Below, piece by piece: positions 16,690 through 53,073 of a stretch of DNA of 64,000 bases. The notes under the pieces were generated by a model. It made no database searches. It saw only the letters and a program-made list of their open reading frames with translations, and was not told where the DNA came from. Numbering within the stretch: the first letter of the stretch is position 1; the number at the start of each line of letters is the position of its first letter. The stretch spans positions 3,698,932 to 3,762,931 of the forward strand of contig OY848925.1 in NCBI GenBank assembly GCA_963693285.1, given 5' to 3'. The translations under genes and the position numbers were made by a program. Origin of the DNA: Xestospongia muta. Lineage: Eukaryota; Porifera; Demospongiae; Haplosclerida; Petrosiidae.

Positions 16690-17080
16690 AAGAATCAGTC
16701 AGTGACTACATTCCTATAATTTTATGTTTGTGGTTTAGTTGATAATAATGAAATAAAAATATCTATTTATTTATTGATATATATTGTGCCCAAATGTTTT
16801 TTTTTGTTGGAAACAGTAGTTGATTGGATTATGGTTGTCAGGGAAGCATAAGATAATTGAAAACATTTTTGATTATAAAATTCTGTTTCAATGGTTAAAT
16901 ATCAATACAATAATTACCTTCAAATGTATACAATAAACATTAAACTTGAAATATAGGTAGATTCAGATTTTTATGTGAGCAAGATTATACAATTATCTAT
17001 AATATTATTAATTCTTGTTCCCTTGAAAGTGGGCAAAAGATTGACGTTCTTAATATAAATATCTATTGTTTTAAATTTGT
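16690..17080. other. Spacer, nothing recognised
   Basis: AT-rich. Its right half resembles 26440-26720, the stretch just beyond the stop codon of the intact caspase-like gene (both carry ttattaatcttg.t and a shared ttggattatggtt..caaggaagcataagataatt tract in parts), so it is a duplicated 3' flank. Confidence 0.5.
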
Positions 17081-17081
17081 A

Positions 17082-17935
17082 CTATAAGTTCCTTCTCCAG
17101 GTACATGTAGTGTCAATTTCGCATTTCTCTCTAGTTTCCTTGCTACAACGAAGTTTTCTAAAATCAAAAAATTTTGTAGTTTGTCCTGATAAGAGCTTCT
17201 TATTGGAGTACACTAAAATATATTTATTTATTTCATCAAATTCTTGACCTTCAGTAATGAAACACTGTGCAGTAGCTTCTTCATTATTACCACAGGAACA
17301 GTATAGTCTGAGTATTATTCCTTGTTCTCTTGCATAATGTCCACAAGATGGGTTACCAAGGTTATCTAGAATTTCGACACATTCTTTGATCCAAATACCA
17401 GAATGGCTACAATCAGACTCTAATGTGAATTGTTTTCCTTTGAAGTAATCTATATAAAGACCAAAGATATCTTGGAAGGTGATGATTCCATCTTTAAAAC
17501 ACTAGTTACCAGTATTAATTTCTCCATAACCAGTGTAATAGATGATAGCTAAATAGTTAACTTGTATAATCAATATAATATGTATGTGTCCTCTTACCTG
17601 AATTTTGTTTACAGTTAGTAAAGAAGCTACTTATCTCTTTGAGATAGTAATCTTTGGAGTATTCAGTTCCTGGATGATCAAAAGAAGGAAATATATGATC
17701 ACAATGTGGACCTTTTTCGTGTAATTTCATAATAAGGTCAATCTCCTTTGTCATCCATGGATTAGATCCTTCTCGATCACTGTGTATAAGTTTATGTGCA
17801 ACTTGAATGGTTTGAGAATCAGACACTTCTCCAAATGAACCAATGATCAAGAGATCATATGTAGTGCACTGATGATGTTCTAGATGGGTTAAAGTATACT
17901 CTTGTGATATTAAATTCTATAATGTACATTGTTGC
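17082..17935 (-). pseudogene. Caspase-like domain, decayed paralogue (copy B)
   Basis: Two exons matching the last two exons of the intact gene at 26730. The upstream exon (about 17595-17935) encodes the YDLLIIGSFGEVSDSQ segment, but has an in-frame stop just before it where the intact gene has Leu. A short GT-AG intron follows. In the last exon (stop at 17082-17084) the catalytic-type TGHG reads TGYG, so the histidine is gone, and eight codons later the Trp codon of the intact gene is TAG. The SDCSHSG cysteine remains. With two stops and a lost active-site residue this is a pseudogene, or at best a non-catalytic relative. Confidence 0.85.
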
Positions 17936-20400
17936 TGTAGGTTCATGGTCACTTGTTATGGGTTTGCAACTTTTACAGTGATTAGGCAATTTATGAATAA
18001 TTCCCTTTAACATTAATTAAAAACATGAAGTGTATATCTACTGATAGAGGGCAGATGTTATTAACACAGGTTTCCTTGGGTTAACTTTGTGGCTTAAAAT
18101 TAGTAAGACAATGTGTTGGGGGTTTCTATAGGAAATACACCACTAAGGCTTTGTCATTTTGCCTTAGTTCGTATAGAAACTTTTATCTAACCTATAACTC
18201 TTTGTTAGTAGTAATATCTTTATTACAGTGATGTCATATGTATTCCACCCAATACAATTTATTAATAATGATAATGCTTGTTTATACATTAAAATGGAAC
18301 TCTATACTATAGTATGCTCCCAATGTTTTAAACAATGATCATATATAAATGCTTTTTAATGCATACAATCTACTGAATATTTTATTAAAGGATTTTTATT
18401 CAATGAAAGTCTTGTTGTATTTCAAATTAATATTTCAACTTCCATTATGTTCTACAAAAGTGTTAGACATAACTAAATAATATCTATTCAGAATAGGAAC
18501 ATATAGCAAATCTTTTCTTGTAAGTTGTTTTTTCATTATTCAAAAATAATAGTGATTTCAACCACAATATACTCAAAAGCATAAACTTAACTATAAATGC
18601 ATTTTATAATAAATAATTAATAATTTGTATCAACCTATAAGGCTATAACTAGAACCAAATAGAAACTGCAATGATATATTCATGTCCCTCTGATTTAGTT
18701 AAACGTCTACCTACAATAAAAAATCTTTATAGAAAAGGAAGGGCACTAGGGAGTGGTAATGGAAATAGCTAACAATGCCATTCATGAAATAAAAAAAACA
18801 CAGTACATACCTTATTTAAGTAGGAAACAAAGTATAAATTAAAATATTCAAATTGATACAATTATTTCGTCAGTATCATGTTAACAATATAAAAGCAACA
18901 CTACTGGCATCATACTCAGTCAATAATATCTAATGCATAGCTAGCTTCTGTTATCCTCTTCTTATTGGAAATGACTATGTGTAGATTGACCAAATAAAGC
19001 CGTGTACACTATAGGTGAATATAAATTTAATTTTCAGTAATAGAAAATTGATTTTCAATAACTTAAATGGAAATATAGCCATGTAACTAGACAATAAAAT
19101 TGACGTGTGAAAATAGCTTATAGCTATAGTTGATTTTTAAATGAATAAATATTTTTATAACATATTCATAGCGAGTGTATCTGTTATGAATATATTACTA
19201 TAGTATCCTGTTGTGACCTAGTTTGGTCAAACGTCCGCTCATCACTAATGCATTGTTCTTTTAGTCAAGTATTCATAGTTAACAATACAATGATATGAAA
19301 TAATAATACTATTCATATATCATCACAATTGTGACCTTATTTAGTCAACATTCCATCCATTACTGATTGCTTTATTCATAGCAAAGTATGAATCCAGTAC
19401 TGGCCATAAATTGACTTTATAACAAATAGCATACAGGGAATAAGATAAAAGACTAATATGTGTTTCTATAGTACATGCATGTGTTCATATTGCAAGAATC
19501 ATTTGGTGCACCATTAGTTATGTATAAGAATAGCGTTATTGCCATCACAGCTATGTACATTATGGTCTAATGATATTTATAATATACACAATCATCTCAT
19601 TTGGGATTGCTATTAATTGTCTGACTAGTAAGAGTTTATTAGAAATGCACAAAGTTTGCCTCTATTCTATGATTTACATAGAATAAAGTTAAAAATTAAG
19701 GGTTGTAAAAAAGTATGGCAACCATTAAAAGGTAACATAACAGCAGAAGTACCTCTGTATAGTGAACTACTGTGTGGTTACAAATTATATTTATAACCAC
19801 ACAGTAGTTTCATTATACAAAGGTATACTGTATTAGGACTGACAATATTTTACATTATCAGTTGTGCTTATATCTGTTTTGTTGAAGTTGATAATAAAGC
19901 ATTGTTCCTACCTTTAAAAAAACTCTTCTAATAATGGTTTCTTTAGCTGATTGAGTAAATGCATATATTGGTCTCATGTAATAATCACACAACAATCATA
20001 TCATCCAAATAGGTAGTATTACCATAGTACTTATTGTTTATTATAATAAATGGCTTATCTAAATGAACAACATAAAGAACTTAATGATTCAATTGATAAT
20101 TTAGGTAAGTTATAATTCATATATCTCATACTATCATAATTTGACTGAACATATCATTGTCTCATTGTAGATTGTACATATTTGAGAATAGAATTAATGA
20201 AGTATAATTGATTGGTTTAGTAAGTCCAAGTCAGAGTTTGATAAAATACGCAAAGTTGGTATATGCACTTGGGATTAAAATTTGGTTGGTTAAAAAGAGA
20301 TAGTTTGAAGCCAGTTCATGCATGCTGGTCAATATAAATGCATGTATTTAGTATTGTAACAATGTGAAATCAATGATGTCATAGACACATTTGCCAAAAA
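17936..20400. other. Intron-like remains between parts of copy B
   Basis: No coding frame. It holds blocks shared with introns of the intact gene: 18022-18080 resembles the hairpin at 27700-27776, and 18555-18690 matches 21985-22120 and 27880-28010. A self-complementary element sits at 19750-19826. Two diverged copies of a gtgacct..tttggtcaa motif occur at 19212 and 19331. Confidence 0.5.
19750..19826. repeat. 77-bp near-perfect hairpin (MITE-like)
   Basis: The left arm tacctctgtatagtgaac... and the right arm, read in reverse complement, tacctttgtataatgaaac... pair over about 35 bases including actactgtgtggtta on both arms, leaving almost no loop. Confidence 0.75.
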
Positions 20401-21090
20401 ACTACTATGTATTAATTCATAATACTTACTTGTTTGAGAAATAGTTGAGATAATTCATGTATCTACTGGAAGAGGTTGGTTTTGATACACTTATGTATGT
20501 ATTACTTTAGAAATGATACTTTGTATTTCTTACATTAATCTTACCTCTCTCTCTCTCTCTATACTGTTGTCAAGACTGTTATCTTCAGGTACATAGTGAG
20601 ACAGACCACAATAACTAGGAGTACCAGTAATGGATAAATCAGGTTTGTATGTATAATTCCTAAAGTATAGTGACATAAATGAAATACAATAGTATGTAGA
20701 TGCTAATATACATATAAGAGATATATAGTTACAATATGTACATTAAATTTAATATGTCTATATGAGTACGTAGTCATTATATACATCTTTCTCACTCATA
20801 TCAAAAATAATGCATTTCCAATCTATAACAAGATCATTCCAATATCAAGAAGATATAGTAGCTAGGTTTGTCTTTACAATTTTCACCAATGTTCTCATTG
20901 GTGGTTTGGGAGCACACATAGTAACAAGATACAACATTTATCCACTTTGTAAGTGTAAATATATAGAGAGCAATCAGTAAAGATCATTCTAACAATCTTT
21001 TCAAATTGCTTATCTGAGAGTTGAAGGCGAACTTAATTCAATGGTAATGGTACACTCTCGTATACCATTACTCTGGTCAATTTACGAAAG
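20401..21090 (-). pseudogene. Decayed exons matching exons 3, 4 and 6 of the caspase-like gene
   Basis: Reading the minus strand, about 21080-20800 is a worn copy of the 3' half of exon 3 (the block encoding the unrecognised domain); about 20650-20560 matches exon 4 (PDLSITGTPSYCG against PDLDIVATPGSG, then YVPEDNS); about 20500-20430 matches the VYQ.Q.LPVD exon but has two in-frame stops. The order is the same as in the intact gene. Confidence 0.72.
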
Positions 21091-22179
21091 TACATCTGTA
21101 ACACTTGAAATTCCTTAATAGAAGGTATATAGGTGTCAGTATTCCCAGTGTAGCCATTATTACAGTCTCTCTTTTTTGTACCACTTTTTTTCCCAACATT
21201 ATCAAACACTTCTTTTAGTGGAGGTCTATTACCACATATAAAATATCCTTTAACTGTTGTTATATAATCTAGTATAATATATGATGTCCTTTTTATTGTA
21301 TTACCTTCCAGTGCACATTATTCTCTTATCTATCTATCTATCTATCTATATAGACTGTCAAACATTTCAGTAGATATGTTATGGATTATAAGACTGACAC
21401 ACCGTCTCATATCAATTATATTAGTACATAACTGATATAATTTCTTTTAGGTATAAGTTTAGTCTGATTGGTACTCACGTGATAGTGATATATCAGTCAT
21501 TTACAAACATCTTCTTTATTTTAGTGGTAAGCAGAAAAGGCCAGAGTACTAATGAACTAACTTTTTCACAATTTTATTCTGATATCAACTAATTTTGTTG
21601 CTTTAAAACTTTTCAGTACTCAACTTAGATTGACTCATAAGATATTTCCATTAAATTATATATAATAGTTTAAAACTTATTATCTACTTGTATTTCTTTT
21701 AATTTATACTTTCTGTTAATTTATTTGAATATCTCAGTTCTATTATTACATATATTTTATATTCTGCGTAATATCATCCTCTCTGCATGGTGGATATGAA
21801 TCTATGATCTCCTCTCTCCATCTGCAATGGCCAGGAATATATGTGGGGACATTTTATCATCATATTGCTGTAGTAAAATGCTTGACTTTGTTCTTGTAGG
21901 TTGTTTTTTACTTTCTATACCTTCTAAACAATTTCTCTAAATTAGTAGATAAGTATTGTATAAATATTCACAGGTAGAGTACAATGTTGATTTCAGTCAC
22001 AGTGTACTCAAAAGCATGCACTTAATTATAAATGCAATTTTATTACAAATGATGAATACTTTATATCAACCTCAAGGCTACAGCTACAAACAAATACCAA
22101 ATGTTGACTTCCTGTCCATATGAAAGTATATACTCTTTAATTATAATGTATCAATACATTTTTAATAGAATCTATTTTC

Positions 22180-22421
22180 TTAATCTGTTCTCTACTAGCA
22201 CTTTGTGTCGGATTTCTAATTGATGTCTTGACTCTTCATTCTCTTCTTCAAGAGCTTTAACATCCTGTAGATGGTATACATATTAACAAAACAAGTGTAT
22301 CTGTTATCTAATACTGCTAATCTTTTTCCTCATCTCTTCTTTGTTTATCAGTCATATCCTTCTCTACTATAGACAGTTTAGTTTGTTGTTGTGTAGCTAT
22401 AAAGTAAGTAAACCAAATAAA

Positions 22422-22453
<32 letters not shown>

Positions 22454-23380
22454 CAAACTAATTTTAACTACAGATTATGCCGTCATTGCCATTTATACAT
22501 GAAATATTTGCATTAATACACTCTCATTATTACAATAATTAAAAGTTATTGACAAATACTTTAAAATGGCTTTATCATGATACCAATTATCAGACTAGTT
22601 ATTAGCTGATGATGTCTTTAAGAGGTTACTGAAATGCCATAAGTTACTCAGTATAAATAAAGTAAACATAGATCATGCAGTAGCTTAATGCATATTTCAT
22701 TGATACTAAAATGATCCTGTTGATGTATCTATCTCCAGCACTTGTCTTCCATTACATTTATATATTTTAGAAGAAAATATTTATTTTCTTGTATAGACCA
22801 TGCACTTGCAACCAGCTCATAACTACTGTGTATGTCGTATGACTTACCAATGTCATACTAGTGGTCAAATACCTATATCATTATCTGCAATTACTACACT
22901 GATTAGTAACTACAGTAACTAAAGGAGTGATCTAGTTGAAATGTTATGTCAATTGCTCAGTTTGTAGAACTTATATCAAGTCTTTCCAAACGCAGGGTGA
23001 ACGAACTCCTTATTTGCCCTTCATTTTGACAGACATGTGCAACAACAACTATTAATTAACTTCTTAGCAACTTCGAAATTACTAACACGAATGCAAGTGG
23101 TCTTTAGATATATGTTACTAGACAGTAATTATAGTTATAGTGTTAATATCAATACTAACCTGTCTGAGAGATAGTTGAGATGATAGAAGACTTATCTTAT
23201 GAAAGAGGTTGGCCTTGACATAATTCTGTGAATATTTTCTTAACACAGAAATGACACTTTATAATATCTTATATAAATTAATCCATTGGTCTTATCTCTC
23301 TCTTCTCAATACTCTCATTTGTAGAGATATATTGAGATATGCCAATATCATCAGGAATGTCAGTATAGTCCAAGGTTATC
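22180..23380 (-). pseudogene. Decayed coiled-coil cassette of copy B
   Basis: Four exon-like blocks in the order seen in the intact gene's cassette: about 23375-23295 (linker exon), 23230-23160 (PVD..STISQT type), 22400-22325 (ATQQQTKLS..EKDMTDKQRRDE) and 22270-22185 (VKALEEENEESRHQLE). The last two remain open and coiled-coil-like. The intron between the second and third (22560-22810) matches 28470-28720 and 38800-39070. No start or continuous frame could be assembled. Confidence 0.7.
22422..22451. repeat. (AT)n microsatellite
   Basis: About 30 bases of alternating at, inside an intron-like stretch of copy B. Confidence 0.9.
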
Positions 23381-23687
23381 AACAAAATAAGAGAAGCTTT
23401 TAGTAACCAATCTTCATAACCAAATTAACTTTTTCTTAAACTTAAATTTACCATCGGTTGAAGTTCTAGACAGAGTTAAAGAGGACTGGCCTGAAGTTGG
23501 TAGAACTGAATATGGACTAAAACTATAACTAAAAGTTGTTAGATTTAAATATTTTCTTTTAGTGATTATTTGTTAATAGACCTATATTAAATAATTGAAG
23601 GCATTGCTCGTATCTTGCATCCTTTATGATCAGCACCACGTGTTAGACACAGAGTAGTTACAGTAGGGACTATTCATTGAAATGTAG

Positions 23688-24205
23688 CTAGTGGAATAAA
23701 TCATTTGATATCTCAACACATAACAATAGGTTAATGACATCACAAACTATAGCCAAGCTACCTCCTAGTTTAGCAAATAAAGACAGGCACTTCACACAAT
23801 GGTCATGTAGTTGAGAGTTACCTTTCATGAAAGCCATTGTTGATTTAAATTCACCAACAAATGGCATCAATTGAAGGTGATGTTCAGACTTCTCTGTTAA
23901 TGAGATCAGCTGTATACATTTCACTCTCTTAATTTTATCAGCAATGGTTATAAGAAATTGAGGATAACCTTGTAACACTTTGATAATCATTATAAGATTA
24001 GTAGAATCAATTGCTATCATCAGTTCATCCAGTCAATAATAATTATGGTCTTACAACTACTAGTCATACATTTTATATGAGTTGAGCCTGAGATAAAATC
24101 AGCTGTAAATAAGTCTGCAGCTACTCCAACTGGATTAGTAATTGCACAAAGTATCAGAGTCAAAGTATTAATGTACTCCTGAATGGAATGCAATTGTTAT
24201 ATTTT
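23688..24205 (-). pseudogene. CARD-like domain, decayed paralogue (copy B)
   Basis: Minus strand from about 24205: ITNPVGVAADLFTADFIS followed by a Thr/Ser-Cys stretch aligns with the IDDPVSLASGLFSAGLIS core of the intact gene's first exon. Two adjacent stops near 24020 interrupt it; the frame 24020-23688 then opens with AIDSTNLIMIIKVLQGYPQF, matching CDPNNLIKITSILEDHPPL. The remainder of that frame (to 23688) is helical in character but not recognised. Confidence 0.68.
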
Positions 24206-24421
24206 TAAGATTATATATCTTTTTTATGTATTATATCTTTTGGAGGTTCTTGTCCTCAAACAGATTCCAGAAACTTAACATAACCAGCAACATTAGCCTT
24301 AAAATCCTTTACTTTATCTACATCTACCAGTACATAATACCGGACTGTGTCTTTACCATGAACTATGTAGATAAGGTGAGACTTACAGAATATACAATCC
24401 TCCCAGGTACATGTAGAGTCT

Positions 24422-24766
24422 AATTCACAGGATTCAGTAGCTGACTTACTACAAAGAAGTCTAGCAAAACTACCATTTTGTAGTTTGCTCTGATGATAGG
24501 TTTTTATTGTAAAAAATCACAATATCTTTGTTTGTTTCATAAAATTCTTTAGCCTCAGTAGTGTAACATATTGCTTTAGCTTTTTCATTAGCACTGCAAG
24601 AACAAAGTACACCAAATATTATTCCTTGTTCTCTTGTGTGATGCCCACAAGATGGGATTCCAAGGTCACCTAGAGTGTTGACACAATTTTTAATCCAGTT
24701 ACCAGAATAGCTACAATCAGACTCTATGAGTGAATGGTTGAATGCTGCTACTTTGTTTGTGTCCAT
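24422..24766 (-). pseudogene. Caspase-like C-terminal fragment (copy C)
   Basis: Minus-strand frame from 24766 contains SDCSYSGNWIKNCV and the REQGII...CSCSANE segment of the caspase-like last exon. Sequence upstream of the Ser-Asp-Cys is unrelated, so the TGHG histidine part is absent. A frameshift after QTTKW moves the end (CELDSTCTWED) to another frame. The homologous reading seems to continue past the intact gene's stop position into 24420-24270 (YYVLVDVDKVKDFKA). Confidence 0.8.
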
Positions 24767-25329
24767 TTATTACATTTACTTTTTTGAAATCTTTAATTGA
24801 AATCTTTAATTTAGCACTTGCAGCCAAAACTAATTGATTTAATAAGTATGCCAAGTCAACTTGGCAATGGTCAATTTTTCATGTTGTTTGTATAACAATC
24901 TATGCTGCAAACTGAGAGAGTATTGCACATGTTTAGATATAAAACTCCTTTAAAATGGTTGTCATTGTTTGATAAAGAGCTTATATTAAGTCTTTGCAAA
25001 AGCTGACTAAAGTCATTGTGGATTTCTCCTCATTTGGTCTCCATTAAGGTGGATATGTTTAGTAACAATTGATAATTAAATTCTTGGCAACTATTTCACA
25101 AGAATGCAAGTGATATAGTAATTATAGCAATACTGTTAATATTCTTACTAACCTGTCTGAGAGATAATTGTTAAATTCATTACAAAACTATATCAATACC
25201 CTGTTTTACATGCAATTAATGTATAAAGTAGTCATTTATATTTAAATCCCATACATCACTTTTGCAATATTTTGGTGAGATTGTCTACAATATATAACCA
25301 ATTTATAAGTCTAGTTTGTGTACTATATC

Positions 25330-25650
25330 TTATTAAGAATCTTTTCCATATCCAGATTCTAGGACTTTACCATAATCAGCAACACTGATATTCCATTGAG
25401 AACATAAGCTTTGAAAAGTTCTGCTTTATCTTCTTCATCTAGTGCATAACATGAGGCTGGTCTATGTCTGTCTTCACTATACAAATTATTCTAAAAACTT
25501 TATGAACATATGATCCTTTCAGGTACATTAGAGAGTAATTCCCATTATTCAGTGGTTGCCTTGTCACAACAAAAATATGTGAGGTTCTCTTCTTTTGTAG
25601 TTTGTCCTGATAAGACTTATTAGAGTAAGTCACAACATGTTTGTTTGTTT
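25330..25650 (-). pseudogene. Caspase-like C-terminal fragment (copy D)
   Basis: Minus strand: a worn match to the very end of the last exon (GQTTK ... CCDKATTE ... SNVPE), with a frameshift, followed at about 25470-25340 by CYALDEEDKAELFKA and later KVLES, which pairs with the tail seen in copy C. Only the tail of the gene remains. Confidence 0.6.
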
Positions 25651-25659
25651 TATTAAAGA

Positions 25660-26729: not shown

Positions 26730-29700
26730 TCAATACTGTACAATATGTTCCTTCCAGGTACATGTAGTCTCAATTTGACATTTCCCTGTAGTTGTCTTGC
26801 TACAACGAATTTTTCTAAAGTCACCCCATTTCGTAGTTTGTCCTGATGAGAGCTTCTTATCAGTGTAAGTTATAATCATTTTATTTATTTCATCAAATTC
26901 ATGAGCCTCGGTAATGTAACAAAGTGCAGTAGCTTCCTCATTAGCACCACAGGAACAAAATAATCTGAGTAATATTCCTTGTTCTCTTGTGTAATGTCCA
27001 CAAGATGGGATACCAAGGTCATCTAGAATTTTGACACAATCTTTAATCCAGTTACCAGAATAGCTACAATCAGACTGTATTGTGAGTCGTTTTCCTCTGT
27101 AGTAATCCATATATAGACCAAAAATATCCTGGAATGTGATGACACCATCTTTAAAACACCAGTTACCAGTGTTCTTCTCTCCATGACCAGTGTACCAGAT
27201 GATAGCTAAATGTAAGTAATTAATATGTATCATTAATGTAATTTATTGGTTTTGATTCTCTTACCTACATATTGTTTACAGTTAGTTAAGAAGTTTTTTA
27301 TCTTCTCCAAATAGTATTCTTTGGAATATCTATTTCCTGGAAGATCTGAACAAGCTAACACATGATGACAACATAGGTCTATTTCATGCATTTTCTTTGT
27401 AAGGTTAATCTCTTTTGTCATCCATTGGTTAGATCCTTCTTGACCACTGGGTATAAGTTTGTGTGCAACTTGAATGTTCTGAGAATCAGACACTTCTCCA
27501 AATGAACCAATGATCAAGAGATCATATTTGCCATACTGATGCTCTCGATAGGTTGGGTTATATACGGAAGTATACTCTTGTAGTTGTAAATTCAATAATG
27601 TACATTGCTCCTGTAATCTTCTGGTCTCTTGTTGATACTTTGCTGACTCTAACAGTAATTAGACAATTTTTGAATAATAGTTTCATTGACATTTATGAGA
27701 AACATGTAATATCTATCTATAGATAGAACGCAGATGTTTATAAACACCGGTTTCCTTGATAGACACCTCATGTTTATCATTAACATGAAAAGGTATTCTT
27801 TTTGAGTATTCATATTTGGTTGGACTTGTGACATGACTGGGCTTGTTTGGGTGGGACACTACAAAACCTGACTTTTGATTCACAATGTACTCAAAAGCAT
27901 GCCCTTAACTATAAATGCCATTTTCTTATAAAACTAATAAACAATAAATTGTATCAACCACAAGGCTATAGTTTGAACCAAATAAGGAATTTTGACTTCC
28001 TGTCCATTTTAATGTCAATTAGTGTATACACTTTAATTATAATGTAGAATTACCTTTTATAATAGATTCTATTTCCTTAGTCTTTTCTCTACTAGTACTT
28101 TCTTGCATTTCTAGTTGACGTCTTAACTTTTCATTCTCTTCTACAAGAGATATAATTTCCTGTAGATGGTAGACATCATATCAACAAAAGAAGTAATAAC
28201 TGATGTCTAATATTACTGATCTTTTACCTCATCTCTTTTTTGTTTATCAGCATCATCCTCTTCTAGTTTGAAGAATTGACTTTGTTGTTGTGTAGCTGAA
28301 ATCAAATAAATGAAATAAAGAATATACATTTATGCGCGCGCGCGTGTGTGTGTAAAAATAGTAAGCAAGCAAATACAAACTATAGATAATGTTGTCATTT
28401 GCCATTTCAACATGACGGGTTGGCTTTCATATATACCTCAACATTATTTCACTGCTTAAAAGTTATTGACACAAGACTTTCAAATTGCTTTAGTATGTCA
28501 GACTAGTTATCAGCTGATGATGTCTTAAGAGGCTATTGAAGTGCCATATAATTACATACTCAGTATAAATAAACTAAACATGCATCATGTAGTAGTTTAA
28601 TCCATATTTCATTGATACTAAAATGACTCTGTTGATCTATCTATCCCCAGTATTTCTCTTTCATTACATTTATATCTTCTAAAAGAAAATGTTTATGTAC
28701 TTGTATAACCATGTACTTGCAAATAGCTTAAGCAATTACTATGTATTTGGTGCGAATTAAGCATTCTTTATTTTGATTTTTTAAGTAAACAATAACATTG
28801 TAGACAAAAAGGGAGCAGGCAAAGTTTGCATAAACTGCAATGTCATACAAAAAGTCAATTTTCTACACAACTATCTGTAATTACTATACTGATGAGTACA
28901 GTTAAGGAGTGATATAGCTAAACTCTTATGTGAATCAGTCAGTTTATAGAATTGATATCAAGTTTTTGCAAATGCAGTGTGAGCAAATTCCTTATCAGTC
29001 CTCATTATGGGATATATGGAATAATAATTATTAATTAACTAGATAGTACCTCAAAATTATTCACAAGAATGTAATTGGTCTTTAGACATATATTACTAGC
29101 CAGTTATTATAATTGTATTGTTAATATCGATACTAACCGGTCGGAGAAATAGTTGAGGTGATAAAAGAGTTATCTACTGGAAGAGATTGTTCTTGATACA
29201 ACTCTGTATGTATCTTAACACAAAAATAACACTTCACATTATCTTATATAAATCAATCCATTAGTCTCACATCTCTCTCTTTATGGTTCTCAAAATCTTC
29301 ATCTACTGGGATGTATCCTGGGAGACTAATACTACCTGGAGTATTAACAATGCCTGAAGTTTGGCAGCAGACAATAAGAAGATGTTAGTCACCATATTTG
29401 TAGTCAAATTAAATTTATATTAAATTGAAATTGAGTATGAGTTAAAGAAATATAATTATGTATTGTATGATTATTGGAGTGTATTATATTGAATGTAGTT
29501 TACGTATAACATACTAATTGTATCTTTCTTACTTAGTTGTGATGTTAGTGATTTTACATTATCCTGAAGTCTTAGTATCTTTTGTTGTTGTTCTGCTAAC
29601 ACTGATAGTAACTCTTTCTCTTCAGCTAAAAGAAAGCATCATTATTAGAACTATATTTTAGGCTCAGTACATTAGGCAAGTAATTAATAAACAAGAGATA

Positions 29701-32700
29701 ATTGTCATAAATTTAGGCAGTTGGTAGCACAGCTTATGTAGAGGTAGCTCATATCACCCATTTAAACATCTTAGTAGAACATGTTAAATCATAGTATCTC
29801 ATACAAGCAAAAATCGGTGTTCACAGGTTCTCAATATATTGTAGCATTGGAAACACTTATATGTAATGACTAATGTTATAGCTTGAAATGTGTATTGTAA
29901 GAAAAAAATAACATTCTCATTTTTGAGTTTCTTTCTTCAGTCTGGTTTATTTTTATAGCACCAGTTACACTAAATAATCAGTTAAAAATTAAAAGGCATT
30001 CATTAGTTTTTTACAGAGATAGCAGATCAATAAAAGGAGTAGCTGTTTTAGCAATTATCATAACAGTATCAATCCTACATAAAGTACACACAATAAACAC
30101 ATTGCTTTCCAACTATCAATATGTGACTTGATTGCAAAAAGGGACCACTTCTGTCAAAACATTTGTGACCTGATTTGTGAAAAACCCAACTGTTAAAACA
30201 TATTAAAAAAAAGGTTTTGTATACATATAGTTGCTATATATGCATAACTATTCTATATGTATGCAAAAATGTTTTGGATATGTTTTATCAGTGTTTTTAC
30301 AAATGAGGTCACAAATATTTTACAAGAAGTGGTCCTTTTTCGCAAATCTGGTCACATATAGTTTTTGTCATGCTATGTCCATCACTGCTCAATTCTTTCC
30401 TTTTTTATCAGATTGATACTAAGCGATCTCTATATCATATCTATTTTCCAAAGACACTTTTAAGGTTTACTAACTTTGACAAAATAAAATCAGAATTAGT
30501 TGGCATTAAATGTTGGCGGAATATGCTAGGCAAACAACAGAAGTGTCAAAGTAGAGATGGCCCAGATTGACCAATGAAATGAATTTGCAGAAAGCAGAGA
30601 ATATCTTACCAATAGCATATCGGAATATTTTAATATTTGTCAGTCATCCTCCCTAGGTTAACAACCATGTTCTGATTAATTTACAGGCTAAAGCAATGTT
30701 TCTAAGCATTACAGTAGAAGTTGGTGAAAATACTGAATTGTTCACATTTTTTTTCATTTTCTTTTTTCCACAACAATAACTCAAAAATATAGATTTACCA
30801 CCATTTTCACAGATGCAGCACAATTTGAAATAAATCATTCTTTTTGTATCTCATATTTCAATTGTTTTGAAAGGAAATCAATTTCAGCAGTTTATTATCA
30901 AAAGCTACATTAGAAAAACCATTTTTACAAATAAATGGATAGGAAAGGAGATTATAAAAAGCATAGTCTCCTACATAATTATTCTGACTGATAACTGTAT
31001 CTTCTGCTTTGATGTTCCGCATGAAATATCCAAGATATTTATTGGATTACTGATAAGTTATTGAATGTAGCATAGCTATGACGCATTGAATAAAATTTCA
31101 TTATATATAACTTTCTTATTGTATTTTGCGGGACCTCCTAGTTGATGGAACCATTCTAAGTTCCCACCTAAAATCCTGTTATCAATTTTCATGGTAATTT
31201 TATTTAATCAGAATAGGTTTTTCTGTGAGCTTGTTGAACATGGAACTTTACTGCCTTCTATCATGCTACAGCTTTCTCTATTGACTATCAAAAACTAAAT
31301 TGCCCAGTGATATATTGTTGCAATCTAGACTTGTGCTATTATATAGAGATGATACAATTGCGATCTTTACTACCTTGTTTGTATCCTTTCTATTGTTCTG
31401 ATATTACTTATCCCTACATTTCATTTCTTATAAAATGTTTTTATTCACTTGTATAACAAAGTTACAGTCAACCAAGATGTACCAGGTTAATAGGTTGGAA
31501 TATAGGATCACTAAATTTGTTTCTGAAGTGGTCAAAATGAAATCTACAATCTTGTTTGCATTTAGGTTCATACTCAACTAATCCCATATAATCCATTATT
31601 AGAGAAAAAAATTATAACAATTGTCCTCATGTACCTTCCTTTCTTTCTAGAATTGATGTCAAGTATTGAACATCTCTTTCCTTCATTTTTCTCTTTTCTA
31701 AAAATACAAAACATGAATAATTACTACATAAAATTTAAAGAGCTAATTAAACACATATAGATACAGTGAATAAAAAGGAAAACATGTATAAATACCTTCA
31801 ATAGAAGCTATTTTCATAGTCTTTTCTCTACTAATGTTTTGTTGTGTTGCCAATTGATATCTCAACTCTTCAATCTCGACTACAGGAGCTCGAACTTCCT
31901 GTAGATATTAAAACATTATGAAACAATTTTACTAATGCAAAAATCATCCTTCTCATTTTATGAGATGCTGATGTTATAGTGATACACTCTGAAGCATATG
32001 TCGAATCAATCACAGCCATCATCTCAGCACTCACCATTGTCTAAGTATGAGGCTTACGTCTTTTTTATTGCTTTCTATTCTCATGTATCACAATATAATA
32101 AATAAGTAAATACAGACCCAAAATTATTGCCTGTTACATGTTGAGTGGACTAAGGCAATAGCAAAAAATTTTTACCTCATCTCTTCTTTGTTTATCTGTG
32201 ACATCCTTCTCTAGTGTAGACTGTTGACTTTGTTGTTGTGGATCTAAAAAGTAAGTAGCAATACATTGATTATATATTTATATATTTATATGTTACTAGA
32301 CAGCAATTATAGTTGTAGTGTTAATATCATTACTAACCTGTCTGAGAGATGACAGAAGAATTATCTACTGGAAGTGATTGTTCTTGATACACTTCTGTGT
32401 GTACCTTAAAATAGAAACAACACTACACATTATCTTTTATAAATTAATCCATTAGATTTACCTCTCTCTCTGCAGTGTTCTTTGCAATATTAATTATTGG
32501 TCTTTCAAAAGAATCAGTAGAGTTTGAATCTGCTTCTTTAGTGAAATAATATAATAGTATTTTTGTTATTGTAGTGATATATCAGAATAAGTAGAGACTG
32601 TGCTATCGTAAATAGAAGATACACCAACATTTGAATGTAATGTTTTTTGCTTGTATGGACAGAATCAGATCCAGCTTCTAATATTTAATTTATTTCTATG

Positions 32701-35700
32701 TATGTAAGCTAAAGTGTGATTCTATCATCTACATGTAAAATATAAGAGCTGAACCATCCTAGTTTGAGACCTAGTGTTTTATACTAATAAATGCTTCCAT
32801 ATATATACATATTTTCTATTAATCAGTATTTCATTTCCTGTTCTAAAACATACAACTTGTACAAATACCTTCATTTTGTTGTACATTTGACTCAAATTCC
32901 ATAGACAGCTGTTTACTGATGGTTTGTTGTACATGCATTTCCAGTTGATGTCTCAACTCTTCAATTTCTTCTTCAAGAGCTCTAACTTCCTGTAAATGGT
33001 ACACATATTAACAAAACAAGTAGTACCTGTTATCTAATACTCCTTATCTTTTACCTCATCTTTTCTTTGTTTATCAGTGACATCCTTCTCTAGTTTAGAC
33101 AATTGATTTTGTTGTTGTGGAGCTATAACGTAAATCAAATATACAATTGGGATAATAAATACCATCAATGTTATTTCATCTTCTTATTTAATAACACTAG
33201 AAGCAAAATCATTTATTACTATATACAGCATACAAGGATAAGTGATGTTGTTGCTGTAATTATCTCTTAAATTTACAACTTTGCATTCTTTTATTTATGT
33301 AGTGATATTTAAGCACATAACATAGGTAAAACACAGATAAAATCAGCATATGCTGTACTAATGTATGTATAATTCACTTCTGTTTCCAATCCCTCAACCC
33401 TCATTTATCTATGTTGTAATAATGATATATTCAAAAGTAACATATTACTATGAAATCATAAGTTTATAGTTCTACAACTGTGATATAATTTGGTCAAAAC
33501 TCAAATCCATCGCAGACATGGTCATCTGAATATAACATTATTTGACTGGGCTCATAACATACTGAATTATTGCTACATGATCACAAGAACTTTACATTAT
33601 AACTTTTAAAAAGTAAAAATAACTGTCCGAGTCTATAACATGACCTCAATAATTCATTGTATAAAATCCGAATCCCCAATATTAGCAATATATAACAAGT
33701 TATGAACTTAGAATAGATTGTCCATCAGACATTTAATGAAAGACAGCATGCAGGGAACATGGCAAGGTAGCATCATTGTCCTTATATAATACATTTATAC
33801 GCTGACAATATAACAATTGCAATATTTTACTATTGATTTGTACTAGAAATAAGCAAATTTGGACTACACTATTGGGATTTTGAATGTTTCTATTATGATA
33901 AATTTGGTTAATGTCAGTATGAAAAGGTTGAGTTTAAAGCCAATCAATTTATGTATTTAGTAATGGAACAATGCAAATTCAATGATGTCATATAAACATT
34001 TACAGCAATTTATAATAATTTTTCATTAATGCATACTACTACTAACCTTTCCGACAGATAGTTGAGGTGACAGAAAAGCTATCTCCTGAAAGAGGTTGTT
34101 CTTGACAAACTGTATGTATTACCTAAACATAGAAATGACACTATATTTCTTACATAAATGAATCCATCAGTGTTACCTCTCTCTCCGTACTATTATCAGC
34201 ACTCTTATTTCCAGGCACAATGTATGGAAGACTAGGAACAACAATAACATCAGAATCTGCTTCTATAATAACAGATGTCATTAGTTACTATGGTTAACTT
34301 AGTATAATAGTATACAATACACTAAACACACTGCTAAAATTGATAAATAAATCGAATATTTAACATATGAATTGAACATGTGAGTGTCATATATGACAAT
34401 GACTCTGCATATGATACAGAGTGTCTGTATGTGAGTGTCACATATGACTATGACTCTGTATATCAGAAGGTTGTTGAGTACATTTACTGAGTTTGGAAAA
34501 GATATATGGATTTATTAGGGATGTGTATGTATAGACTTGTGACACACTAAAACCAGCTATATGTTGGTACTTTCTAATAACATCAAATGTAATACTTGTG
34601 CACTTAATGTATGCTTATGTACCTAATCTACTAGCATATATTAACTACATAGCTAATATATATCCATATATGGAATAAAATTTAATAATTACAATACATA
34701 TTATGTATGATTAAACAATTAGTCTAGACAACTAATAGAACTAATTATATGACGGCATTAATGTGTGTTGTATGTACATTATAGATATGCCTACTACATA
34801 CTAATGAGTGACATGAACAAGGAAAAACATTAGCATTGCCAATATGTACATGCACATGTTCTAGCAATATGCAACAATCGTTTTGCTGATATGGTGTTAA
34901 CTTAATATTAACAAAGCTACTACCATCACTGCTATGTGAATTATATTAAAAAGGAAGAAAGTTGGTTTACACTCTTGGGATTGTTGCATGCATCACTGTA
35001 AAAATTACTGTTTTTAACAACTAATTTGTAACTTGGATGGATTACTATGGAATCTAGAGTTTAAGTGAATTACTTACTTTACAATTTGTTGGTAGAACAT
35101 ACCAACAAATTATAGTGAGTAAATACACAAGTACCAGAATCTATAGTATTTCAAGAATGTGTTATTAAGCTACAAATTATTTGTTAAAATAACAAATTAA
35201 TTTTACAGCATATATATAATGTTAAAGTTTGTTTAATATCAGTATGAAATGATATGAGTTTAAGGCCAATCTAACCATACTGGCCAATACAAATGCATGT
35301 ACTTAGTATTGTAACAATGTGAAATTGTTGAAGTAATAGAGCAATATTTTGGATTACTTCATAACGTTACTAACCTATCTGAGAGATAGTTGAGATAATA
35401 GAATTTGAGGAGTTATCTACTGGAAGAGGTTGAGCTGGACTCTCAAAACTGTTATCTCTGGGCACATATTGATTAAGGATATTACCACTACCAGGAGTAG
35501 CAACAATGTCCAAATCAGGACGATGTATATTCTAAGGTATAGTGATATCAATAATGTATGTAGATATTGATGTACATATAAGAAAACAAATATATATACA
35601 CATTAATTGATATAAACATGTAAATACCTTTTTATCTCTCTTATCAAGGATAATATTATCTCCCACCTGTAAAAAGATCACTCCAATATCAAGGATATAG

Positions 35701-37063
35701 TGTACGCTTGTCTTTGCCATTACACTCAGTGCTCTTATAAATGACTCAGGAGCACACATTGTGACAATGATGGAGCCAGCTTCCACTTTAATAATATGAA
35801 TATACTGAGTAAGATCGGAGAATACATCCTTGACAATTTTCTCAAACTCTTTGATTGTAAAACTTTCAGGTGAAGACCAATTTAAATGTAGAGTGATGGT
35901 ACATTTCATTGTAGGATTACGACCAGTTAATTCTACTTCTTTCTGTAGCTCTTGAGCAAATGTAGCACTCAGTAACTTCTTACGATAGATCTGTTCTTCA
36001 ACTTCATATGCTTTAATGGCTGTTATAGCATCGGAGAGTTTGAAACGATCGATAATAGCTACTAGAACACTCAAATTAACTGGTGAACAAAGCCTACGAA
36101 CTGCAACAAAAACATCAGTTATGTCTTGTGCTCTTCTGATTTCTTCTTTAAACTCTTCAAATGGATAAGACAGGACTAGAAATTGTTTTATCCTATCAAT
36201 GTTGATTTTAGCTGACTCAGCAACTTCTTGAACATCAAGCACCAAAGCGCCTAATTTTCCTTGCATTAAACTCAAATCTTTATGGATGCTCTCATGAACT
36301 GTGACAGTTTCTGACATAGTGAAATAGTACATATTATAAGTATTTGTATAATGTTAAATCTCTATTGTTATATAAACTTACTATGTAATTGTCTGTTTGT
36401 GGTTGGAGTAACAGATGGTTGATAGTTGAAGTCAGGTGATTCTGGAAGAGATTTTAAGTGAAAAATCATGCATTAATGTTATAACACTCTGAAGATATAT
36501 AAAATAAAATATCTATTAATGTTCTGGTTAATGTTTATTTGTACAATGTTGTTAAGGATTTTAATGTTTGATATGTAATCTTTGGAAACTATAGTTAAAA
36601 ATGACAGTTTGCACACTTCTTTGAACTTTTTTTAACAAGCAATGACATTGAAGCTTTAACTGTCTAAACCTAGTCTCTTATTTACAAGACTAGTCTGAGT
36701 CTTTTACACAGCAGCATGCTTTATTAATAGAGTAAGATTACCGTAGTCTGTTGTCATTTCTTCAGCAATTGAGTCTAATGGAGGATGGTCTTCTAATATT
36801 GAAGTGATCTTAATAAGATTGTTAGGGTCACAAACTACTGCCCCTTTCATTCCATTTAGTAAGTGATAATTCCTAACAATGACACAGCTAGTTTCACATG
36901 AGGCTTTCATCAGTGTCCAGTCAGAGATAAGACCAGCAGAGAACAAACCAGAAGCTAGAGATACAGGATCATCAATGACATGATGTAATCTACTGAAGTA
37001 CTTCTGTATCACCAGATACTCCTTGGTAGAGGCTACAAAGTTGTCATCTGAGTCTATAGCCAT
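26730..37063 (-). CDS. CARD-like / coiled-coil / caspase-like protein, 1077 aa, 20 exons
   Basis: Exons: 37063-36742, 36441-36382, 36310-35628, 35531-35375, 34262-34177, 34122-34047, 33122-33055, 32989-32869, 32535-32462, 32404-32338, 32243-32176, 31898-31796, 31697-31635, 29625-29533, 29353-29271, 29213-29138, 28295-28228, 28159-28054, 27648-27265, 27205-26730. All junctions are GT-AG, phases match, sum 3234 nt. Residues 1-107: helical death-fold-like (CARD-like) domain. 128-354: unrecognised alpha/beta domain. About 407-790: three copies of a four-exon cassette giving Gln-rich and heptad-like coiled coils (LEEEIEELRHQLE). 792-1077: caspase-like domain with TGHG (His ~927) and SDCSYSG (Cys ~966) as in clan CD peptidases. 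Such pairing suggests a scaffold-activated protease in cell death or defence; that role is inference. The start is the first ATG of an open exon. Family name uncertain; splicing needs transcript support. Confidence 0.83.
28331..28352. repeat. (GC)n(GT)n microsatellite
   Basis: Alternating gc then gt for 22 bases in an intron of the caspase-like gene, striking against the AT-rich background. Confidence 0.85.
30118..30360. mobile_element. MITE with ~70-bp inverted repeats and TA ends
   Basis: The left arm begins tatgtgacttgattgcaaaa and the right arm, reverse-complemented, tatgtgaccagatttgcgaa; both continue ggaccacttct and then atttgtgacct. TA stands at both ends, as for Tc1/mariner-derived MITEs. 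It lies in the longest intron (29626-31634) of the caspase-like gene. Confidence 0.82.
34378..34470. repeat. Short direct duplication
   Basis: gtgagtgtcatatatgac..tgactctgcatat recurs about 54 bases later with few changes. Intronic. Confidence 0.7.
35070..35125. repeat. Short hairpin
   Basis: ttactttacaatttgttggta and taccaacaaattatagtgagtaa are inverted copies separated by five bases. Intronic in the caspase-like gene. Confidence 0.7.
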
Positions 37064-39684: not shown

Positions 39685-39869
39685 CTACGTTACAATCAAA
39701 TTGTCTAGAGCACGTATAGCTAAAAGTACAGTCTCCACAAAGCAAACTAGAGCGCCAAACTTTATGTAAGGCAGGCTTTGAGTATAAGACTTATAGTCAT
39801 TGGTAATTGCGCCCACGTTTTTAATGATGAGTGGACTCGTCGATAGGAAATAAAGGAATAAAAATTTTC

Positions 39870-40086
39870 TTATCTTATTTAAATAGTAATCTTTGGAATA
39901 TTTACTTCCTAGAAGATCTGAATAATCTAACTCATGATGAAAACTTAGGTCTATTTCATACTTTTTCCTAATAAGGTTGATCTCCTTTGTCATCCATTGA
40001 TTAGATTCTTCTTGATCATGAACTGGGTATAAGTTTGCGTGCAACATGAATGGTCTGAGAATCAGACACTTCTCCAAATGAAACAA
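39870..40086 (-). pseudogene. Caspase-like fragment (copy E)
   Basis: Minus strand from 40086: after a damaged start it reads ESNQWMTKEINLIRKKYEIDL and YSKDYYLNKIRKFL, matching the penultimate exon of the intact gene (27648-27265) from the SNQWMTKEIN segment to the splice site. The last exon with the histidine and cysteine is absent. It lies upstream of the intact gene in the same orientation. Confidence 0.8.
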
Positions 40087-40119
40087 TGATCAAGAGATCG
40101 CATGTAGTGATATTAATAT

Positions 40120-40198
40120 GAAACATGAGGTATCTATCTACTATAAGAGTGCAGATGCTTATAAACACATTTTTTTGGTTGATAGATACCTCATGTTT
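40120..40198. repeat. 79-bp hairpin with perfect 18-base arms
   Basis: aaacatgaggtatctatc at the left and gatagatacctcatgttt at the right are exact inverted copies. Related, more worn versions stand just upstream of the same exon in the intact gene (27700-27776) and in copy B (18022-18080). Confidence 0.8.
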
Positions 40199-41481: not shown

Positions 41482-43990
41482 TCACTTGAAACTTGATTGT
41501 TCACATAGTCCGGATAATTCTCGCAACTTCTTAAATCTTTCCTTTCCTAATACTTTTGTCAGCATATCTGCTACCATATTACTCGTTTGACAGTACATCA
41601 GTTCAATGGTCTTCTTGTTGACTTGCTCTCTAATAAAATGGTACTTGATCTCAATATATTTAGATCTTCCATGACTTTGTGGGTTTTTAGATAGACAGAT
41701 AGCTGCTTGATTATCTTCATAGACTGTGATTGGTTCAGGTGGTTCACCTTGCAGATCAGTGTAGAGTTGTCTCAACCATATGGCTTCTTGTGCTGCCTGA
41801 GACAAAGCAATGTATTCTGCTTCAGCAGTGGAAAGAGCTACACGATTGCTTACGACTTCTCCAGCTTATTGCTGTACCACCAACTTGAAAAATGTAACCT
41901 GGAGTGGATTTACGGTCATTCACATCACCGGCCCAGTCTGAATCAGAAAAACCTTCACAACTACTTGAATTGCTCTTGTATAACAAGCCAAAATTGTGAG
42001 TTCCTTTGAGATATCTTAAAATTCTCTTGACTGCAGTCCAGTGCTGCTTTGTCGGTTTTGAGCAATATTTGGCAACATTCGATACAGCAAAGGTTATGTC
42101 AGGTCTGGTCATTGTTGAGAAATACTGTAAGCTTCCTACTGCTGATTGATATAGATTTTCATCAACTAGTTCATCACTTTCAGTAGTTTTAACTAGCTTT
42201 GAGCCAACACAGACTGGTGTTGCTACTGGCTTGGCATCTTTCAAACCAAATTTCTCTAAGATGTTGAGAGTATAGGCAGGTTGACCAATCCATACTGACT
42301 TTTCTGAATGATTTTGAATGATTGAAACACCAAGAAGATATTGTAAATCACCAAGATCCTTAACCTCAAACTGAGCAGATAGTTTGCTTTTCACATCCTT
42401 CATTCTTTTCTTGCTTTTTGAGGCAAGTAGAATATCATCAACGTAGACAGTTATTATACATAATTCTCCTTCTGAGCTAATGTAAAGACATGGGTCACTC
42501 TTGGTTTGTTCAAATCCCATGTTCTTCAACAGATGATCAAGGGTCATGTTCCAGCACCTTGGTGCTTGCTTTAATCCATAGAGACTGCGTTTGAGTCTGC
42601 AGACCAAGTGCTCTTTTCTTTTCACTTTGAACCCTTCTGGTTGAGTCATGTATACTTCCTCTTCCAGATCACCATTGAGAAAAGCTGAGGTAACATCCAT
42701 CTGATGGAGCATCATCTCATTTTGAACTGCCATTGCAATGATTGAGCGAATGGATTCAAACCGGACAAATGGACTGAACGTTTCATCATAGTCTTGTCCA
42801 GCTTTTTGTGAAAAACCTTGATCAACCAGTCTTGACTTAAATCTCTCAACTGATCCATCAGCCTTGACTTTTCGTTTGTATACCCATTTACTTCCCACAA
42901 CTTTTCTATCTTTTGGAAGTTCTACCAGGTCATACACATCATTAACTTTCAGGGATGCCATCTCTCTCTTCATAGCTTCCATCCATTTGTCTCTCTCAGG
43001 ACACATAGATGCTTCCTCAAAAGTACGAGGTTCGTGATACTGTTCTTTGGTCTGAGTAGAATTGATCCACACCCCATAGTAATCCGGTTGGCGCCTTTCT
43101 CGATTGGAACGTCATAAACCAGTAATTCATCTCTTGTAACCTCATTACTTGATTCACCTTCAACTTGATCAACTACCTTTTGAATGTTTTGCGAGATTTC
43201 ACATTCATCATCAGGTAAGTCAATTTCCACTAATTTGTCAGCTTCACTTTCATTTTCCACCTGCTCCTTTCAAGTCCATACTTGGTCTCATCAAAAACAA
43301 CATCACAACTATAGATGATTCTTCTCTCTTGCAGACAATACAGCCGATAACCCTTGACATTAGTTCCATATCCTAACAGGATACATCATTTGGCTTTTGG
43401 ATATAACTTCTTTCTCTCTTCTTTTGGTATGTGTGCATATGTCACACAGCCAAACACCTTGAGTTGATTAACAGCTGGCTTCCTACCTGTCCAGGCTTCA
43501 TAGGGTGTTAAACCATTGACAGCTCTGTTGGGCTTCTATTTCTTAGGTACACAGCTGTTGCTAAGGCTTCTGCCCAAAACCTTTGTGGTAACTGAGCTCC
43601 AACTAGCATTGATCTAACTGCTTCCATTAATGTGCGATTAAGACGCTCTGCTACACCATTTTGTTCGGGTGATCTTGGAACAGTCAGCTCGTGTTTAATA
43701 CCTTCTCTCTTTAGATAGGACTGGAACTCAAGTGAGGTATATTCACCTCCATTATCAGTACGAAGAGATATTATTCTACGTCCTGTTGACCTTTCAACCA
43801 TGGCTTTCCATTCTTGGAAATACTGAAACACTTGACTCTTGCATTTCAATATATAGATCCATATGTACCTGGTCTTATCATCTACAAAGGTAAGAAAATA
43901 CTCTGCTCCACTCAGAGACTTTGAATTTATCTTTCCACATACATCACTGTGAATCAATTCTAGTGGTGCTTCTGCTCGTTTAACCTCACT
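41482..43990 (-). pseudogene. Pol of copia: integrase, RT, RNase H (broken)
   Basis: Integrase core at about 43990-43508: IHSDVCG (first Asp), RTDNGGEY (second), PEQNGVAERLNR (third acidic residue), all kept; the frame ends in a stop near 43510. A linker at 43260-42970 changes frame near 43090. Reverse transcriptase runs 43072-41822 with KWVYKRK, the DVTSAFLNG block and the YVDD box near 42445. Another frame change at about 41825 separates RNase H (41805-41482: SQAAQEAIWLRQL, EDNQAAI, KYIEIKYHFIREQV). The stop is at 41482. Key catalytic residues are present but the polyprotein is interrupted. Confidence 0.93.
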
Positions 43991-44003
43991 AGTCGGAAAT
44001 GGG

Positions 44004-45393
44004 CTTCAGTGGATCTTTCCCTGAACGCATGACTCACACAGTGCCATCTCATCAGATACATCACTACAACTTAAACCTTTTACCAACTGTTCATTTGCCA
44101 ACTTTCTCAAACTTGTTACATTCAAATGTCCATAACGATGATGCCATATCATAATGCGACTATGATTCTTCACTGTGTTACATTGATAGTTTGCTGTGGA
44201 GTGTTTACCTGGCAGCTTAGGTAATAGCGACTTCCATATTTTTGTAGATACACCAATTACTTCTTTAGCTTTATTGAAAATCTTACAAGTAGACTCATCA
44301 AATCTGACTATTTTCCCAAGTGATGTTGCTTTAGCAATGCTCAACAAGTTATACAATAACTCTGGTACATAGAGAACATCATGAAAAGTACCACTTCTGT
44401 ACGATCCGTCACTTTGTTTCAACTTCAGTTTAACTGTTCCTTGTTTGTGGGTCTCTATACTTCTTCCGTCTCCTAATGTAACAACCTGCGGTGTATCCAT
44501 ATCCTCCATCTTGTCAAACATTGTCTTATTACAGCATATGTGACATGTTGCACCAGAATCTATGATCCAGTTATTTCTTTGACTGTCACTGTCATCTGCT
44601 AGTGCATGTGCTAATGCTAGCAATCCAATATGAGTACTGTCTTCATTCTTCTTTTTAGCAGTATATCTCTGTTGAGACTTCCTTGATTTCTCACTCTTCC
44701 TTTCACCACGTTCATAGCAGTCCTTCTGAATATGTTCAAGTTTTCCACAATTGTGACAGCGTATTCCTCGTTTCCACTTCACCTTACCTTTAACATTCAA
44801 CGCTTCTCTCTCAATTTCTGTCTCTGCCTGACGAGCCTTAGCTTTTCTCTCCTCATACAGGTTTCCATGGAGGAAACCTTTTCATTGGCCTCTAATGCCG
44901 TAACAAGTGTATCGTAGGATTCGGGTAGACTGGCCAGTAATTGTACCACTCGATCTTCCTCGTCCATTGGAGCTTCAATTGCTGCAAGCTCATTAAATAT
45001 TTCGGTTATTTTTTTGATATGTTCCTGGATCGACTCTCCTTTCAAATGCAAGGAGTGAAGTTTACGGCGTAACACCAGTTTATTAGCCCAGGTTTTCTTT
45101 TGGAACTGGCTCTTCAGTTTCTTCCATACTTCAACAGGTTCTTTGGGGTCACCTATCAGGTACAACAATGATGGGTCGATAGATAGCACAATTGTAGCTA
45201 ACGCTCGATCATTTCTTGTACGATACTTTGCAATAGTAGCAGCAGTTGCATCTTCAGCTGGAGGTGTTTCTGTTTCATCGACAATACTCCAGAGATCCTC
45301 TTTCATTAGTGCCATTTGACACTGTAGTTTCCAAGTTGCGTAATTGCTGTCTTTAAGAGGAACAACACTGACAATCTTAGATTCTGTTGCCAT
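44004..45393 (-). pseudogene. Gag and protease of copia (frameshifted)
   Basis: The ATG at 45391-45393, about ten bases after the primer site, begins a UBN2-type Gag of about 198 codons (NYATWKLQCQMALM, HLKGESIQEHIKK). A frame change near 44800 leads into CHNCGKLEHIQKDC (a CCHC knuckle), the protease box WIIDSGATCHI (about 44575) and the Gag-pre-integrase segment HRYGHLNV ... CESCVQGKIH, which ends at a TGA near 44005. Confidence 0.93.
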
Positions 45394-45403
45394 CCTAGCG
45401 AAC

Positions 45404-45416
45404 CGGGCTCATAACC
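45404..45416 (-). promoter_or_regulatory. Primer binding site of copia (half-tRNA type)
   Basis: Directly after the 5' LTR the element reads GGTTATGAGCCCG. This is complementary to the anticodon stem-loop of initiator tRNA-Met (CGGGCTCATAACC class) rather than to a tRNA 3' end, the priming mode described for Drosophila copia. Basis: remembered tRNA sequence. Confidence 0.75.
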
Positions 45417-52840: not shown

Positions 52841-53047
52841 GGGAGATGAACATTCCTCTCATATGTAATAATTTGTGTGTTTAATTACTGATTATTAATT
52901 ATGTAATGATCATGTAATGATTATGTTTTTTTGTGAGCATGCGCTCAGATCATGTGTTGAGCTAGTCATTCCTTTCTTCTAAAATAAGTTGTTGTCAATC
53001 TCCTCTAATCTTGGTTGTTTGTTAGCGTAGTCTCAAGTTACCTCATT

Positions 53048-53058
53048 TGGTGACGAGG
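53048..53058 (+). promoter_or_regulatory. Primer binding site of gypsy-2
   Basis: tggtgacgagg, the same position and type as in gypsy-1 (1109); fits tRNA-Ser(GCT) 3' end with one mismatch by memory. Confidence 0.55.
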
Positions 53059-53073
53059 ATAAAAACGTATTCG

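Follow-up and report, generated by a model that had tools for sequence, protein, structure and literature searches.

A sponge gene joins a putative death-fold and TRADD-N region to a caspase-like domain through a stalk of duplicated exon modules

The 64,000-nucleotide stretch of Xestospongia muta DNA analyzed here (the window) lies on contig C9 of the 158-Mb genome (OY848925.1, positions 3,698,932 to 3,762,931) and contains a 20-exon gene on its minus strand, running from 37063 to 26730 in window numbering, which is used for all gene positions below. We put at about even the chance that its product serves as a death-fold scaffold, that a Raptor-like pocket in the C-terminal domain captures a partner, and that exon copying sets the length of the intervening stalk. 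Membership of the gene in a sponge expansion of Death-like/TRADD-N proteins is part of this explanation and is held with equally balanced confidence. Splicing gives 3234 nucleotides (nt), or 1077 codons plus a stop, from the following exons:

36742..37063, minus strand: exon 1, residues 1-107, helical domain at the N-terminus, at most resembling a death fold
36382..36441, minus strand: exon 2, residues 108-127, linker of phase 1-1, matched in position and phase by an exon of sister gene A
35628..36310, minus strand: exon 3, residues 128-355, predicted DED-like six-helix bundle, then a TRADD-N-like alpha/beta domain with a Gly-Ser turn
34047..35531 (35531-35375, 34262-34177, 34122-34047), minus strand: exons 4-6, residues 356-461, Ser/Thr/Pro-rich linker
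32869..33122 (33122-33055, 32989-32869), minus strand: exons 7-8, residues 462-524, first coiled-coil pair, module C-D
32338..32535 (32535-32462, 32404-32338), minus strand: exons 9-10, residues 525-571, linker pair, module A-B
29533..32243 (32243-32176, 31898-31796, 31697-31635, 29625-29533), minus strand: exons 11-14, residues 572-680, second coiled coil, with counterparts in sister gene B
29138..29353 (29353-29271, 29213-29138), minus strand: exons 15-16, residues 681-733, linker pair, module A-B
28054..28295 (28295-28228, 28159-28054), minus strand: exons 17-18, residues 734-791, third coiled-coil pair, module C-D
27265..27648, minus strand: exon 19, residues 792-919, coiled-coil end and first half of the caspase-like domain, with stops in its first third in the sister genes
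26730..27205, minus strand: exon 20, residues 920-1077, caspase-like core containing the motifs YTGHG (His927) and DCSYSG (Asp965-Cys966-Ser967), stop codon 26732-26730

The spliced frame has no internal stops, its phases agree, and all 19 introns have GT...AG ends. A neutral splice search did not single out this model at intron penalties of -3 and -1, returning 22 exons at -3 (adding exons of 6 nt and 156 nt, the latter with weak sites, and lengthening exon 7) and 36 exons at -1. We accepted the 20-exon model because relatives, namely sister gene A and other sponge proteins, settle the exon structure. Sister gene A (C9:3591000-3606500), on the same contig and ~121 kb from the window gene, repeats its exon types in matching order and phase and differs in how many stalk modules it contains. 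The 25 exons of its automatic model include one of zero length and several that correspond to no exon of the window gene. Sister gene B (C9:3556500-3566499) matches the window gene from exon 3 on, the sequence compared ending near exon 3. Exons 1-3 and 19-20 align to other sponge proteins, and three predicted proteins of Amphimedon queenslandica (P0003, P0005 and P0006; 36-47% identity to the window protein across matched parts) carry both ends within a single chain. The 5' boundary of exon 19 is uncertain, as that part has stops in sister genes A and B and must be skipped there. The initial annotation had proposed 20 GT-AG exons in one open 1077-codon frame, and splicing, sister gene A and the sponge proteins all agree with it.

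His927 and Cys966 are 39 residues apart, as first read from the TGHG and SDCSYSG motifs, and the original assignment to clan CD is supported by structure comparison: the predicted model of a relative with 52% identity has the caspase-type alpha/beta/alpha core. Its best Foldseek matches include Raptor/mTORC1 entries. The window protein lacks a QACRG motif and has no match to Pfam PF00656 (Peptidase C14), the profile against which a comparison of residues 792-1077 had been suggested; relative P0001 just passes this profile (22.1 v 21.4 bits). PF14538 likewise has no match in the window protein, and 4 of 10 relative rows match it weakly (best 0.0089). The family alignment A4 has 10 rows with P0007 entered twice, and counts refer to nine proteins. 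Classical caspase identity was rejected by profile comparison, in which hhalign of the family with eight caspases from the same genome aligned only the HG block, at a probability of 0.5%.

Comparisons with GSU0716 and Raptor place Ser967 at the canonical caspase cysteine position after strand 4, whereas direct comparison with caspases of the same genome weakly favors Cys966 at that position. An offset test against Raptor gave 1.80 at zero shift. The Raptor of this genome contains YNGHG and DCSHAG, and the GHG and D-C-S-x-A-G motifs of the Raptor RNC domain are in register with those of the window gene. In Raptor, a serine occupies the position of the caspase cysteine; human Raptor has no DEVDase activity where tested, the dyad cysteine of Leishmania Raptor is reported to be dispensable, and the cysteine of Arabidopsis Raptor to face the core. 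A Raptor-like binding module is favored over a protease for the C-terminal domain. The initial annotation had called the protein a protease; we did not retain this term in view of the register and the human and Leishmania results.

An active clan CD protease, working as an induced-proximity switch through a His927/Cys966 dyad whose loop geometry lets the shifted cysteine act, is a real possibility, though a less likely one. The clan CD fold, the weak preference for cysteine-on-cysteine alignment with caspases of the same genome, the strong selection acting on the block with both residues and the annotation in the literature of TRADD-N proteins as bearing caspase effectors are all consistent with such an enzyme. 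The cysteine is present in all 25 aligned relatives and the histidine in 21; the histidine is, however, missing from the other 4 and from 4 of 30 copies in the same genome. The Raptor register also argues against an enzyme, given the core-facing Arabidopsis cysteine, the dispensable Leishmania cysteine and the lack of human DEVDase activity, as does the low profile probability. One relative, P0028, has D-C-C-Y-S-G with LGHS and thus a cysteine where the Raptor register puts the caspase cysteine, making it a good natural test case for the register question.

The window gene belongs to a clade that has lost its C-terminal tail. This tail extends ~80 residues past a CTWED motif in 25 of 30 loci of the genome and in 22 of 26 database rows. 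A tail match is missing from five loci: the window gene, sister genes A and B, a decayed copy at 17.1-18.0 kb of the window, and L031; among the database rows, P0025 and P0027 end early and P0011 and P0026 are incomplete there. In the first four of these loci, a stop lies no more than 13 residues from the CTWED tryptophan. These four form one clade (support 0.993), so the loss is old. It is not unique to this clade, since the tail is likewise absent from L031, which lies outside it, and from P0025 and P0027. Starting 70 nt ahead of the stop, the 3' end of the window gene aligns to A and the decayed copy at 71-72% over ~460 columns, and to B as two segments (67% and 80%). The gene was initially described as intact, which applies to the open reading frame and not to the ancestral C-terminus, ~80 residues of which are lost relative to most relatives. 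Two downstream stretches considered as a possible tail exon of the window gene are taken to be separate remnants, because both contain stops and run on, in the upstream direction, into caspase-like exons that have decayed. The decayed sequences are:

24214..25657 (25657-25288, 24730-24214), minus strand: two decayed copies of the caspase-like exon end and tail, with stops
17058..24184, minus strand: remnants of at least one decayed sister gene, with exon 1, TRADD-N, linker, coiled-coil and caspase-like pieces

In the decayed sister, stops interrupt both the TRADD-N part and the motif block (one in the latter), and the histidine has become tyrosine. In the open genes, the 68 codons of exon 20 from YTGHG to CGHY are under strong purifying selection while the codons after them drift. 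The ratio of nonsynonymous to synonymous substitution rates (dN/dS) in this block is 0.20 (window-A), 0.11 (window-B) and 0.15 (A-B), with Fisher values of 3e-4, 1e-6 and 2e-3, respectively. In the following 82 codons the corresponding ratios are 0.52, 0.77 and 1.36, none of them significant.

These data bear on whether the gene is a decaying family member with an open frame and a truncated, non-functional product, which we regard as unlikely. The missing ~80 residues, the decayed tail copies downstream, the 82 codons without significant constraint and the clearly dead neighboring sister would fit decay. Against it, all 20 exons are open, the tail loss is old and common to the four-member clade, and three of the four members have open motif blocks under purifying selection. 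In the predicted model of relative P0002, the tail (residues 689-738) is a separate small beta-beta-alpha-beta piece and the caspase structure match (model residues 436-666) ends before it; the core fold can therefore survive its loss.

The better evidence for a death fold comes from exon 3, and it points in the direction of DED. Exon 1 is open and 35-50% identical to six other sequences, and the corresponding region is helical in the predicted P0002 model. The N-terminus had been described as CARD-like, a reading that finds no support, exon 1 not having been folded alone: exon 1 and its relatives have no CARD or other death-fold match in Pfam, a PDB profile search of the exon 1 family gives no death-fold match, and the window is not among the 15 CARD matches in the genome. 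The domain initially left unrecognized corresponds to exon 3 and most likely comprises a DED-like death fold followed by TRADD-N, as judged from a predicted model. The latter part of the exon 3 model has the RRM-like beta-alpha-beta-beta-alpha-beta topology, with the tiny-Ser beta2-beta3 turn that characterizes TRADD-N.

Sequence profiles give weaker signals for exon 3. The fold-match lists contain no entry titled TRADD, the window exon matches neither PF13820 nor PF20694, and a PDB sequence search with the exon 3 family found no relevant match. Among 14 family members, PF20694 matches one (best 0.0025) and PF13820 two (best 0.0065), both weakly; a genome scan for TRADD-N gave four weak matches (E 0.4-0.6), all of them from the exon 3 family. 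The Pfam scan of the family returned 18 families at E up to 1. Two of these, NrtR_WHD and OGFOD2-like, match four members each, more than TRADD-N or DED, and were discounted because they fit neither the fold nor the motif of exon 3. None of 1969 candidates scored in a database search with exon 3, a limit of that search and not an absence, because relatives found through the other domain align over exon 3.

The stalk between these regions is built of phase-symmetric exon modules. Linker exons A and B have phases 1-0 and 0-1, as do coiled-coil exons C and D. There are three C-D pairs in the window gene, four in sister gene A and four clear pairs plus a less regular fifth in sister gene B. In A, a 2.7-kb stretch repeats at 1.47 kb with 88% identity, a visible tandem duplication, and B has similar repeats. 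The expandable stalk proposed earlier is thus supported by the differing module counts and the repeat in A. Exon 4 resembles linker exons A and B fused without an intron, and the matching stretch is intron-split in sister gene A.

The long coiled coils of the initial annotation are better described as three coiled-coil-like stretches, two of them clearly periodic, that alternate with linkers and do not form one long coil. A 3.5-residue periodicity as strong as that observed was reached by 2 of 1000 shuffles for the second stretch and 7 of 1000 for the third (exons 17-18 and the start of exon 19). The first is charged and poor in Gly and Pro, with weak periodicity (101 of 1000 shuffles), and none of the three linkers exceeds its shuffles. 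The TRADD-N and caspase exons are 7.3-10.6 kb apart in the stalked clade and 0.3 to 4.4 kb apart (median 1.7 kb) in 19 neighboring pairs of a cluster at 5.19-5.35 Mb; these are DNA distances between pairs assigned by neighborhood, not stalk lengths.

We give little credence to a bolder version, in which a non-canonical clan CD site works through Ser967 or a shifted Cys966 nucleophile and its activation is tuned by stalk length via tandem C-D exon copying, as a one-chain counterpart of a scaffold-plus-paracaspase system. It is very improbable that a Death-like/TRADD-N gene and a separate coiled-coil/caspase-like gene have been read as one: introns reach 2.0 kb within the stalk and the single-gene model was built from genomic sequence, but the A. 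queenslandica proteins with both ends in one chain and the exon arrangement repeated in sister gene A argue against it.

In the partner-capturing scaffold that we prefer, the predicted folds suggest a division of labor along the chain. The DED-like and N-terminal helical domains would join an assembly through homotypic contacts, and TRADD-N would link that assembly to the remaining chain. The alternating linkers and coiled-coil segments of the stalk may dimerize or oligomerize and set its reach. The C-terminal domain of clan CD type, whose His/Asp-Cys-Ser pocket is conserved and lies in Raptor register, would act mainly in peptide binding or partner capture, as in Raptor, and not as a standard cysteine protease, its accessory tail being lost and its pocket kept under selection. 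We infer oligomerization and partner binding, and likewise any immune or cell-death role and the cell location.

The initial annotation had placed the gene in a sponge-specific family, and this holds for the named database members: of 30 database relatives, 14 are named, all of these being demosponges (13 Amphimedon and one Dysidea), the searches leaving room for distant relatives in other groups. The A. queenslandica relative P0007 has, by eye, a signal-peptide-like start and, separating TRADD-N from the caspase-like domain, a stretch resembling a membrane span, and some family members may therefore be membrane-anchored. Elsewhere in the window, a frame-shifted fragment at 39859-40120 (minus strand) comes from another copy of the family exon 19. 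Open frames at 41482-45408 (minus) and at 1348-4816, 53026-56735 and 59370-60802 (plus) resemble Copia, Gypsy and hAT mobile-element proteins, their translations having been read by eye.

The locus provides a concrete example of a published, little-described class of sponge death-fold proteins and recasts the label 'caspase effector' as a question that can be tested, whether the domain is an enzyme or a binder like Raptor. Its stalk is a clear case of a signaling spacer lengthened by intragenic duplication, and the sister genes allow comparison. If the pocket proved catalytic through a shifted nucleophile, what counts as a caspase active site would broaden.

The general death-fold/TRADD-N/caspase architecture is already known, having been published in 2021 for the sponge Amphimedon (Kaur et al. 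2021, eLife, PMC8195603). The NCOA6-clade proteins described there likewise have an N-terminal Death-like unit, TRADD-N and a variable C-terminus that may be a caspase, and show a large lineage-specific expansion. For these proteins, the main text of that paper describes neither a coiled-coil stalk nor a Raptor register nor the loss of a tail; it contains neither 'raptor' nor 'exon', and its one 'coiled-coil' concerns RNA polymerase. A word search of a Dysidea NLR paper (PMC12909245) found neither 'TRADD' nor 'coiled', and none of the open-licence papers searched pairs 'pseudocaspase' with 'sponge'. Within that literature, the stalk exon modules, Raptor register, shared tail loss and focused selection look new.

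Raptor shares the GHG and D-C-S-x-[SA]-G motifs of its RNC domain with the window gene but continues into HEAT or armadillo and WD40 repeats, where the window gene has a death fold, TRADD-N and a stalk. Classical DED or CARD initiator caspases also combine a death-fold domain and a caspase fold in one chain; the window gene differs in having no C14 Pfam match and no QACRG, and in adding TRADD-N and the stalk. Elsewhere in the same genome, CARD and strong caspase matches lie 1 kb apart on one strand at C8:7571657-7573540, probably a classical CARD-caspase. In the system formed by a CARD-coiled-coil scaffold and the paracaspase MALT1, a death fold, a coiled coil and a caspase-like domain cooperate by assembly. 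With no homology claimed, these elements belong to separate proteins there and to one chain in the window gene.
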